Source: Phycisphaerales bacterium
GTDB lineage: Bacteria; Planctomycetota; Phycisphaerae; Phycisphaerales; SM1A02
Length of the DNA stretch: 64,000 nt
Direction: 5' to 3'
Assembly: GCA_029268515.1 (NCBI GenBank)
Contig: JAQWNP010000001.1
Location: 1 to 64,000, forward strand
Shown here piece by piece: positions 20,929-57,058 of the stretch. A program made the translations under genes and the position numbers. The notes below the pieces were generated by a model. It searched no databases. It was given only the letters and a program-made list of their open reading frames with translations, and was not told the origin of the DNA. Every line of letters begins with the position of its first letter. The first letter of the stretch is position 1.

Positions 20929-21258
20929 ATGCTATATGACAGACACCTCAAATCCTCGGATACTCAAACAAACGATGGACGCCGCTCCAATCGCCATTCT
21001 TGCCATGGACTCGAGGTGGTCATCGCCTGGATCTGCCCACAGCTTTCAACGGTCAGATATGAGATGCTGGATATGAGTGCAAACGGCCTGAAAATTCGTT
21101 CCTCCTCTCCTCTCATTGCAGGAATGCTGGGTCGAGCAACCCGCATCCTTCCCCATGGCCAATGTTTAAATGAGACGGTGAGCATTGTCTGGACCAAATC
21201 CAGCTCTGATGGCACTTATATCGAGGCTGGCCTGCGTTTTCAGACCCCAGATCAATGA
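20929..21258 (+). CDS. PilZ-domain protein
   Basis: This short protein of 109 residues consists of a single PilZ domain. The two c-di-GMP binding elements are present in order: an RxxxR site in GRRSNRHS (near residues 18-22) and DMSANGLKIRS (DxSxxG, near 48-53), followed by beta strands ending EAGLRFQTPDQ. Such stand-alone PilZ proteins act as c-di-GMP receptors that bind partner proteins. No partner is obvious in the neighbourhood. The pilin gene at the window start and the exopolysaccharide locus are the kinds of systems c-di-GMP controls. It stands alone, about 140 bp after the divergent flavoenzyme start. Confidence 0.8.
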   Translation: MLYDRHLKSSDTQTNDGRRSNRHSCHGLEVVIAWICPQLSTVRYEMLDMSANGLKIRSSSPLIAGMLGRATRILPHGQCLNETVSIVWTKSSSDGTYIEAGLRFQTPDQ

Positions 21259-21385
21259 TGCCATAAATTCTGGCCCTCTAATGAACCTAGACATTTCAGA
21301 TCCGTATCAATGGCAGATGATCTACCGGAATGCACGTCATTCCGATCATGTCTCAGATCATCGTGTTCGCGAGTGATCGCGAGTT

Positions 21386-21406
21386 AAAAAGAGGCTCACA
21401 AGAGCC
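21386..21406 (-). terminator. Intrinsic terminator of the putative RNA gene
   Basis: On the minus strand a 5-bp GC-rich stem GGCTC/GAGCC with a four-base loop is followed directly by TCTTTTT. There is no T tract in the other direction. It ends a transcript arriving from the right, which is not the sigma-factor mRNA, since that runs rightwards. Confidence 0.75.
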
Positions 21407-21700
21407 AATTTCGTTGCCGTTCTGATTTTCAATGGGCCTCCGACCCTTCCGCTCATTGTGCGTATATCTGCCTTGCCCTTCCGCTGCCAGACAAGCCGAC
21501 GTGTATGACTTTATCCACGTTGCCTGCTGTCTCTGCATCCGGTCGGGGAAGACAGGGGCGTGGTATCTGAAAAGGTGCCACGCTCTTTCCCTCTCCTTTC
21601 CGGTGTGTGGCCGGAAGCGCTCTCGGGATTCGGTGCGTGCACCCGCTGCACAAACAGTGTGGCGCACGCACCATCCCACCCGAGTTATCCAAGAATGTCA
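21386..21700 (-). ncRNA. Probable structured RNA gene, family not identified
   Basis: The 460 bases between the PilZ and sigma-factor genes carry a row of hairpins that make sense as one leftward RNA ending in an intrinsic terminator. Stems read on the plus strand are: ctcggg 21622-21627 with cccgag 21679-21684, enclosing a perfect 9-bp stem (21632-21640 with 21664-21672); ttccgg 21598-21603 with 21611-21616; gcgtgg 21558-21563 with 21578-21583; ctgtct 21527-21532 with 21550-21555; acgtg 21499-21503 with 21516-21520; caatg 21430-21434 with 21454-21458. The RNA strand is purine rich and shows about nine GGA triplets, several in loops, and AGCGGAAGGG occurs twice. I looked for tmRNA, RNase P, SRP, 6S and cobalamin-riboswitch signatures and found none. 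The 5' end is a guess. Confidence 0.5.
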
Positions 21701-21730
21701 GACCCCTTCCATCCGTGAGTGAATTACAAA

Positions 21731-22642
21731 ATGCAGAAGACTAAGGGCGATATCGATCTTCATCTCTACCTAAGCCAGATTAGCAAAGTCGATTTGCTCA
21801 CTGCTCAACAAGAAAGAGATCTAGGTTGGAAGATTATCAACGACGAATGCTGTGACTCCAAGCAACAGATGATTGGAGCCAACCTTCGACTTGTTGTTTC
21901 AGTTGCTAAGAACTTCACCAACCGAGGGCTACCTCTCTCTGATTTGATCGAAGAAGGCAATCTCGGTTTGATCCGAGCCGTTGATGGCTACGATCCTGCA
22001 CACGGGGCGAGATTCTCAACATATGCAACTTGGTGGATAAAGAAGTCCATCAGAAGAGTGCTTCATACTGCAGGCCCACCAATACGCCTTCCAAGCCATC
22101 TCATTGAGCGCATCACTCGATGGCGATCAATTTATGATCGTCTGGAACACCACTTACATAGGCCACCCACACCAAGTGAATTCGCCGTGGCTGCAGAGAT
22201 TGATCCAAATAAGATGGAAATGGTAAATCGCATCTTGTGCATTAATCAGCGTGCTGCAACGAGGCCGAATGATCAAAGTAACTGCAACTTAAGCCTACTA
22301 GACCTCTTTGAAGATCATCGCAGCTTGCGCCCTGAAGAGACTGCGCAGCACTTTGAACAAAAATCCCGTCTACGAGACTGCCTCTTTCTACTGGATAACC
22401 GATCAGCTCGAATTGTACGGCTTCGCTATGGACTAGAAGGCACGTCACCAATGTCATTGAGACAGGTCGGAGAAATAGTGGGACTCACGCGAGAACGCGT
22501 CAGGCAAATTGAGATGGCGTCACTACGTAAACTACGTCAACTCATCGACTATGGAACAAACTCCGAAGCTGGAAAAAATCACACAAGGGCCAAGACAAAT
22601 GCCCCTTCAAGACTTGTACCAGAATCACTAAGATCTGCTTAA
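21731..22642 (+). CDS. RpoD/SigA-type RNA polymerase sigma factor
   Basis: This sigma-70 protein of about 303 residues has regions 1.2 to 4: LHLYLSQISKVDLLTAQQE (1.2), NLRLVVSVAKNFTNRGLPLSDLIEEGNLGLIRAVDGYDP (2.1-2.2), RFSTYATWWIKKSIRRVL (2.3-2.4), IRLPSHLIERI (3) and the helix-turn-helix VGEIVGLTRERVRQIEMASLRKLR (4.2). It lacks the long 1.1 region, so it is a short primary-like or group 2 sigma factor rather than the main RpoD. A GTG at 21719 is a possible alternative start; I prefer the ATG at 21731. The upstream intergenic region holds the divergent putative RNA gene, whose promoter must lie within a few tens of bases of this start. Confidence 0.92.
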   Translation: MQKTKGDIDLHLYLSQISKVDLLTAQQERDLGWKIINDECCDSKQQMIGANLRLVVSVAKNFTNRGLPLSDLIEEGNLGLIRAVDGYDPAHGARFSTYATWWIKKSIRRVLHTAGPPIRLPSHLIERITRWRSIYDRLEHHLHRPPTPSEFAVAAEIDPNKMEMVNRILCINQRAATRPNDQSNCNLSLLDLFEDHRSLRPEETAQHFEQKSRLRDCLFLLDNRSARIVRLRYGLEGTSPMSLRQVGEIVGLTRERVRQIEMASLRKLRQLIDYGTNSEAGKNHTRAKTNAPSRLVPESLRSA

Positions 22643-55615: not shown

Positions 55616-55987
55616 TTAGAAGGCCGATCCAAGTAACTGCTCGACCGTATCTATCAACTCTAGAGGACTAAATGGCTTAACCAAATAGACCGTGACACCG
55701 GCTTCGGCACCTCGCTCCATATCAACTTTCTGACCGCGCGCCGTTAGCATGATTATTGGAATGTCTTTTCCATCGACTGTTTTTCTAAGTTCCACAACAA
55801 CTTCAATACCAGTACGGCCTGGCATCATCCAATCAACAACGATTAGATCTGGCTTTTCGACAATGGCAATTTCCAACGCCTCATTGCCATCACTGGCTTC
55901 GAGGATCCGATAGCTATCACTCTCAAGGGTTGTACGAACCAGATTTCGCAGGCTCGCCTCATCGTCCACCACTAATACTGTCTTCAT
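55616..55987 (-). CDS. Single-domain response regulator
   Basis: This 123-residue receiver domain stands alone. It has the acidic pair in LVVDDEASL, the phospho-acceptor Asp in DLIVVDWMMPGRTG (near residue 52), the Thr of IIMLTARGQ and the Lys of YLVKPFSPLEL (near 103). The frame opens 31 codons earlier, but the ATG at 55987 with GGGAG nine bases upstream is the natural start. With no output domain it should act by protein contact, and the candidates are the sigma-54 activator next door or the histidine kinase downstream of it. Confidence 0.93.
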   Translation of the reverse strand: MKTVLVVDDEASLRNLVRTTLESDSYRILEASDGNEALEIAIVEKPDLIVVDWMMPGRTGIEVVVELRKTVDGKDIPIIMLTARGQKVDMERGAEAGVTVYLVKPFSPLELIDTVEQLLGSAF

Positions 55988-56138
55988 CTTTAAGATCTCC
56001 CACACATTTGGATTGCTGCACCATGATAGTAGCCATCGCTGGTGGGCTTCCAACTGGGGTGATCGCCAAATTTCCATCAATTCCCGATGTCGCTTTTACG
56101 CGACTCCAGGCAGAAATGCCTGAATTTGGCGGTGCAGA

Positions 56139-56263: not shown

Positions 56264-57058
56264 TCATGACCCTTGCGATTCCAATCCTCTTCGCAGTTTC
56301 ATCAGAACCGAAGTATGAATCTGAGATACGCGACTTTCGGTCAATCCGAGCGTGATTCCAATTCGTTTAAGTGTCATATGCTCAAGATAGTAAAGACTCA
56401 CAATCAACCTCTCGGTACGACTAAGCGCATCAAGTATCTCCCCACGAAGCTCTCCTCGAAGGAAATTTGAGTCGCCATTCTCCCCTGAGTCGCCACTGAC
56501 TGCATCGATTCGAAAGAGCAACCGATCGCCTTTAGATGAAACAATATCATCGAGACTTTGGATGTGTCCTGCTTGCGAAGCACGAATACACTTGGTCACT
56601 TCTTCTTCACCTTGTCCAATGGTTTCTGCAATCTCGTCGTCACCAGGACGATAGCCATTTTCTGCCTGAAACTGATCTGCCATACGTCGTGTCTGACGAC
56701 GACGAAGTCGAGCAATACGAGGCATCCAATCACTTGCTCGCATCTCGTCTAGCATCGCACCTCTTACACGCCAAGTGCAAAATGACTCAAAGCGTTTCCC
56801 TCTTTCGGGATCAAAGTTGTCAATTGCCTCCATAAGACCAAAAGTTCCCGCAATCATGAGATCATCTGAATCTAGAATCGCTTGGGCTGGCATTTTTGAA
56901 GCCATGACTCGAGACTGTGATCGCACCAGCGGCATGTAGTGCTCTACCAGTGCATTGCGATCTTTGTCATTTCGCTGCGCAAGGTATTTCGTCCATAGCT
57001 GCTCAGATTTGGCGTCTGATGCCTTTGATTTAGACAGAGTTTTATTTGCACTTACCAT
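56264..57058 (-). CDS. FliA/WhiG-type (sigma-28 family) sigma factor
   Basis: This 264-residue sigma factor is of the FliA/WhiG/SigB branch. It has LVEHYMPLVRSQSRVMASKMP with DSDDLMIAGTFGLMEAIDNFDPERGKRFESFCTWRVRGAMLDEMRASDWMPR (region 2; RGAMLDE is the FliA-type hallmark), the NGYRPGDDEIAETIG region 3, and the helix-turn-helix TLKRIGITLGLTESRVSQIHTSVLMKLR (region 4.2). No flagellar genes are in the window, so it may direct a stress or developmental regulon rather than flagella. An anti-sigma partner is not visible. The B12-domain gene lies 60 bp upstream on the same strand and the response regulator downstream. Confidence 0.92.
   Translation of the reverse strand: MVSANKTLSKSKASDAKSEQLWTKYLAQRNDKDRNALVEHYMPLVRSQSRVMASKMPAQAILDSDDLMIAGTFGLMEAIDNFDPERGKRFESFCTWRVRGAMLDEMRASDWMPRIARLRRRQTRRMADQFQAENGYRPGDDEIAETIGQGEEEVTKCIRASQAGHIQSLDDIVSSKGDRLLFRIDAVSGDSGENGDSNFLRGELRGEILDALSRTERLIVSLYYLEHMTLKRIGITLGLTESRVSQIHTSVLMKLRRGLESQGS

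Follow-up and report, generated by a model that had tools for sequence, protein, structure and literature searches.

A conserved, structured element lies between a PilZ-like gene and the gene for an RpoS-like sigma factor in a Phycisphaerales bacterium. It is tentatively read as a structured cis-acting 5' leader of the sigma factor mRNA, or as the pilZ-sigma intercistronic region, encoded on the plus strand and restricted to the genus. The window, the whole stretch of DNA analyzed, spans 64,000 nt of an assembly of 3.2 Mb in 20 contigs, 99.5% complete. The first-pass annotation of this DNA had placed an unidentified structured RNA next to the sigma gene, on the minus strand. The structured RNA adjoining the sigma gene is supported by the present analysis, whereas its placement on the minus strand stays unproven and is somewhat weakened.

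Conservation and folding of the core

The element was compared with its copy in a sister species, the single other genome of the genus in the comparison, and all two-species figures refer to these two sequences (n = 2). The sister copy is located on a 6,080-base contig of an uncultured Phycisphaerae bacterium. Genomic neighborhood analysis reveals the same gene order on this contig, which stops inside the sigma gene: an FAD oxidoreductase gene (identified by Pfam search), pilZ, the element and the sigma gene, with a gene that we take from its sequence to be lipA-like also in conserved order. The best NCBIfam model for the sigma protein is RpoS (231.5 bits, below the cut-off of 378.7), its best PDB sequence matches are RpoS as well, and it is 91% identical to the sister protein over the 101 residues compared. 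Coordinates are collected in Table 1.

Table 1. Features of the pilZ-sigma interval, in positions of the window.
Feature	Position	Strand	Basis
PilZ-like protein gene, upstream of the element	20929-21258	+	Pfam PilZ E 0.00087, 20 bits, below the 22.5-bit cut-off; synteny in sister
Upstream nested hairpin A	21316-21362	+	Outside the range first annotated; 15/15 pairs in both species
Upstream hairpin B, TCGCGA-GTGA-TCGCGA (sister ACGCGA-TTCAT-TCGCGT)	21367-21382	+	6/6 pairs in both species, one compensatory change
Terminator-like hairpin and U tract, window only	21386-21406	-	Terminator scan; no counterpart in sister scan
Conserved structured core	21460-21684	+ favored, - possible	225 nt ungapped, 35 substitutions vs sister, sharp conservation borders
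Domain 1, long interrupted hairpin	21470-21553	+	Helices common to both species, on both strands
Domain 2, 14-pair hairpin	21554-21587	+	Helix common to both species; 3 one-sided pair-preserving changes
Pyrimidine tract UCUUUCCCUCUCCUUU, overlapping the end of domain 2 and continuing behind it	21584-21599	+	Part of the core's longest invariant run
Domain 3, short hairpin UUUCCGG/CCGGAA	21597-21617	+	Helix shared between species on both strands
Domain 4, long nested hairpin (the 15-bp stem first annotated)	21619-21685	+	Helices present in both species
Sigma-70 family factor, RpoS-like	21719-22642	+	Pfam regions 1.2, 2 and 4; start GTG 21719 or ATG 21731

The core is under purifying selection, since its identity to the sister (84%, 190/225) stands against 51% at the third positions of 100 sigma codons read in both species (80% overall), 69% for pilZ, 72% over the shared 6.1-kb block and 90% for RNase P RNA. 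In blocks of 25 columns, which do not coincide exactly with the core borders, identity is 0.72-1.00 within the core and drops to 0.44-0.56 in its sigma-side neighbors and to 0.24-0.44 at the opposite flank, so that the flanking blocks reach only 24-56%. The longest invariant run (21574-21605, 32 nt) is not significant alone, because random placement of the substitutions gives P 0.10.

The core is also non-coding. In all six reading frames the three codon positions take about equal shares of the substitutions, and of the 26-27 codons that changed, 20-23 did so nonsynonymously; the codon-position bias of a protein gene is absent, although two minus-strand frames run without stops across the core in both species. 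At the start of the sigma gene itself, the two species agree at every one of the first 38 bases from the ATG (21731-21768), even at third positions, and this stretch may belong to the control region as well.

Folding analysis supports a real, conserved structure. The 333-nt minus strand first annotated (21386-21718) folds at -134.1 kcal/mol (z -4.30, none of 100 shuffles as good), and the stems described there, the long nested one at 21619-21685 included, are present. For the core, z is -7.34 on the plus and -4.32 on the minus strand in the window species, and the sister gives -5.49 and -4.92 (each value from 400 shuffles, of which no more than 1 was as good); a second run of the sister gave -4.99 on plus and -5.36 on minus. 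Stability therefore favors the plus strand in the window species, while the strands are about equal in the sister. A scan of the whole window in 426 segments of 225 nt (12 shuffles each, common sd) places the lowest z of either strand at 21460 on plus (-7.4; -3.8 for its minus strand). The range 21386-21718 is thus structured as had been claimed, but the conserved part is confined to the core, and covarying hairpins also occur past the range's end, at 21316-21382.

Four domains make up the core. Domain 2, folding alone as a 46-nt segment, reaches -23.1 and -19.6 kcal/mol in the two species, and the pyrimidine tract behind it is impure. This hairpin is a possible attenuator.

Strand assignment and competing readings

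Hairpins recognized by eye on one strand, even if conserved, call for a strand test. The interval tested begins behind pilZ and stops short of the sigma start; it holds 460 ungapped columns with 138 substitutions, and randomized substitutions serve as the null. Both strands retain far more pairs than these randomizations allow: 69 shared pairs on plus (null 28.8, 0/300 as high) and 65 on minus (0/300 as high). The strands differ in changes that preserve a pair. One-sided changes number 8 on plus (null 2.5, 0/300) versus 2 on minus (null 2.1, 170/300), and two-sided changes 4 (3/300) versus 2 (59/300); the one-sided difference of 6 was reached in 4/300 randomizations. Of the eight plus-strand changes, the core holds five and hairpin A one. 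A seventh falls in hairpin B, at an out-of-register part of the alignment, and the eighth sits in a stretch that aligns poorly. The last two should be discounted because the alignment is poor there, leaving 6 versus 2. A gapped version of the count gives 9 on plus versus 2 on minus. As a control, RNase P RNA shows 9 versus 0 one-sided changes and 141 versus 32 shared pairs on its true and other strand, respectively.

Thermodynamic comparison points the same way. RNAstrand compares mean MFE, mean z, consensus energy and SCI (PMC1892782). These four quantities, computed directly and not taken from the RNAstrand classifier, all favor plus over minus: mean MFE -107.1 versus -101.5, mean z -6.4 versus -4.6, consensus energy -85.7 versus -79.9 and SCI 0.801 versus 0.787, although the margin of SCI over column shuffles is modest on both strands (equaled or exceeded by 16 and 20 of 300). 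Among four comparison RNAs of this genome, three known RNAs and one 6S candidate, the annotated strand has the lower z in 4/4.

Two observations favor the minus strand. The fraction of purines among unpaired bases is 0.65 and 0.61 on minus versus 0.32 and 0.39 on plus in the two species, the minus loops being purine- and A-rich; RNase P RNA shows 0.68 on its true strand versus 0.33, and the annotated strand has the higher value in 3 of the 4 comparison RNAs. Within the core alone, the minus strand retains more shared pairs (53 versus 46, with 3 versus 33 of 200 randomizations as high; 0 versus 4 of 200 with the sister as reference). One-sided changes in the core alone run 5 on plus to 2 on minus, a weak difference, reached in 48 and 26 of 200 randomizations. 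The strand evidence is thus mixed: the interval-wide and thermodynamic tests lean toward plus, and loop composition and core-only pair retention lean toward minus. On balance, the element is probably encoded on the plus strand, in the sense of the sigma gene.

The main rival reading is a small RNA on the minus strand whose transcription would begin near the sigma start, run leftward and stop, in the window species, at the 21406-21386 hairpin. Its conserved purine-rich single strands would let it act in trans; alternatively, it would control the sigma gene divergently. This reading is plausible but doubtful. It draws on the loop composition and core-only pairing just described and on what had been called a clean terminator, a 5-pair GGCTC/GAGCC hairpin (21406-21393) with the tail TCTTTTT that is present in the window but was not found in the sister. 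The window terminator scan found 3 sites versus 0.4 expected, the other two being that hairpin as read on plus and a further minus site, 21673-21660, whereas the sister scan found 1 versus 0.6 expected, about the chance level and in the sigma sense. The minus strand also has the fewer one-sided changes and, in the window species, the less stable fold, and no consensus sigma-70 promoter was found on either strand in either species, a result that counts against the leader reading as well. The placement on minus keeps part of its support, while the energies of the fold and of the consensus, together with the G-U substitutions, point to plus.

Furthermore, structure extends past the proposed end of such a minus-strand RNA, since hairpins A and B covary at 21316-21382. 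Hairpin A carries 3 compensatory changes, and a U-A/U-G wobble in it pairs only on plus; sliding its partners by 1-3 columns lowers pairing to 20-50%, and dealing the letters out between the two rows gives 52/500 as high, a weak control with only two rows. Both hairpins could instead come from a transcript separate from that of the core, such as the 3' end of pilZ. Separately, a 31-residue frame at 21281-21376 was considered as a leader peptide and rejected, as a stop interrupts it in the sister.

A second alternative shares the strand evidence of the leader reading: a plus-strand non-coding RNA, freed from the pilZ-sigma transcript by termination or processing and acting in trans. The element's appearance as a discrete island with sharp borders would suit it. 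However, no terminator-like site was found on plus between the core and the sigma start in either species, which favors the leader reading, and an end behind domain 2 would exclude the conserved domains 3 and 4. Against the leader reading, in turn, stand the impure tract and the fact that neither the window nor the sister scan reported domain 2 itself as a terminator; the sister's match is an alternative stem of 9 pairs within the 3' half of that domain, weaker than the domain 2 hairpin (-9.3 versus -19.6 kcal/mol as short segments). Such a trans-acting RNA is improbable, and a control region at the front of the sigma message fits somewhat better than a free-standing RNA.

It is very unlikely that the conservation reflects protein-binding inverted repeats in DNA or an unrecognized small protein instead of a functional RNA. 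Two-sided compensatory changes in inverted repeats are expected of DNA palindromes too, but stems that are long, interrupted and spread over several domains, with G-U changes on one side, resemble those of an RNA; the stop-free minus-strand frames that a small protein could use show the even, largely nonsynonymous substitution pattern reported above.

Known RNA families and distribution

The first-pass annotation saw a layout reminiscent of CsrA-sequestering RNAs, and CsrB/C-type RNAs present many GGA motifs in hairpin loops. The genome does encode two csrA genes above the Pfam cut-off (contigs C10:199934 and C16:164078), and 7 GGA triplets occupy the same column in both species. However, the triplets number 12 in the 333 nt rather than the nine or so first reported, which is no enrichment for the composition (8.2 expected from mononucleotides, P 0.09; 9.4 from dinucleotides, P 0.17), and in the predicted minus-strand fold 0/12 lie wholly in an apical loop, with one placing two of its three bases there. 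The repeated motif AGCGGAAGGG does occur twice on minus (plus-strand CCCTTCCGCT at 21444 and 21476), but its second copy is outside the conserved core and altered in the sister. The element thus resembles CsrB, CsrC and RsmZ RNAs as a multi-hairpin RNA with GGA triplets in a genome with CsrA, and differs in that these triplets are neither enriched nor within loops; a CsrB/RsmZ-like function is extremely improbable.

The claim that the element matches no common housekeeping RNA is borne out. RNase P RNA, tmRNA and SRP RNA score above threshold elsewhere in the genome, and a sub-threshold 6S RNA candidate is located at contig C6:279392-279555 on minus (32.9 bits versus 46.4, E 7.7e-5). Rfam release 15 yields no match at the gathering threshold in the window; a permissive search gives 8 matches to miRNA and snoRNA models (E 0.77 to 8.4), none credible, and the 2071-base sister locus gives nothing at E up to 1. 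Literature searches on Phycisphaera small RNAs and sigma factors and on Phycisphaerae riboswitches returned no such element by title and start of abstract, the wider planctomycete literature being covered among the matches listed.

Judging by the genomes compared, neither the element nor this variant of the sigma factor appears to occur outside the genus. Blastn homologs of the element occur in 2/181 genomes of the family. Covariance model R1 matches 6/181 at E up to 1. Two of these are the two genomes of the genus, in each of which the element also gives a weak match on its own opposite strand; the remaining four are partial (15.0-17.3 bits, 44-51 nt), sit where long open frames run and were judged chance. 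Across 397 genomes of the class, blastn of the core at a loose E of 1 returns something in 250/397, but all matches listed except the window itself are pieces of 17-59 query bases and are read as noise; at E 0.001 the matches listed comprise the window's genome and two genomes with 22- and 34-nt pieces, the sister genome not being among the matches listed for this search. The element was not found in plasmids or phages, an 18-mer search of viral contigs gave none, and a 20-mer search across genome contigs hit the sister contig and one Peribacteria contig, the latter taken as chance.

The sigma relatives point the same way. The best family matches outside the genus are sigma factors of 47-52% identity (E up to 1e-85; 12/181 genomes including the window's own, in a search that may miss fragments at contig ends), and these carry no such structure upstream. 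Fourteen loci were compared, of which 13, three genus paralogs included, have enough upstream DNA; none of the 13 has such a structure, which counts against the leader reading, their upstream z values ranging from -2.1 to 1.46 on plus and from -2.9 to 1.03 on minus.

Elsewhere in the window, segment 56010-56234 has the second lowest z on plus (-4.9) and the lowest on minus (-5.5) of the 426 segments. It is a palindrome around CACCAAGTCACCCACAG...CTGTGGGTGCTTGGTG, with another sigma-factor-like gene (56264-57058, minus) on one side. The open reading frame on its other side (55616-56080, minus) is presumably response-regulator-like.

Proposed leader function and known counterparts

Under the preferred leader reading, the element would lie within the sigma mRNA. 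RNA polymerase would transcribe hairpins A and B first and then the four-domain core, where domain 2, running into UCUUUCCCUCUCCUUU, could serve as an attenuator, a pause site or a Rho-entry site. A small RNA, protein, ligand or temperature signal might then refold the element, so that transcription or translation would proceed into the sigma gene. The comparison of the two species establishes the conserved structure, purifying selection, non-coding character, position and synteny; a place in the sigma mRNA, the attenuation and the signal are conjecture.

A bolder version of this proposal is that the element is a previously undescribed, lineage-specific Phycisphaerae RNA that switches between terminating and read-through folds to control the RpoS-like sigma factor, an independent counterpart of the enterobacterial rpoS leader. 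We regard this version as unlikely. Were the leader reading true, a distant phylum would have evolved the control of a stress-type sigma factor by RNA independently.

Two more kinds of known RNA enter the comparison. RNase P RNA, tmRNA, SRP RNA and 6S RNA are likewise structured and non-coding, and the RNase P RNA is conserved to a similar degree between the two species (90% versus 84% for the element); they differ in being encoded elsewhere in this genome (6S sub-threshold), whereas the element has no Rfam match here. The E. coli rpoS leader, the precedent for the proposed mechanism, spans 567 nt and undergoes Rho-dependent premature termination that is antagonized by small RNAs (PMC6582626). 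No sequence relation between this leader and the element is shown, and the sigma factor falls below the RpoS model cut-off. In both cases, a long structured region stands ahead of a sigma gene, RpoS-like in the case of the element, and in E. coli such a region is a known site of premature termination.
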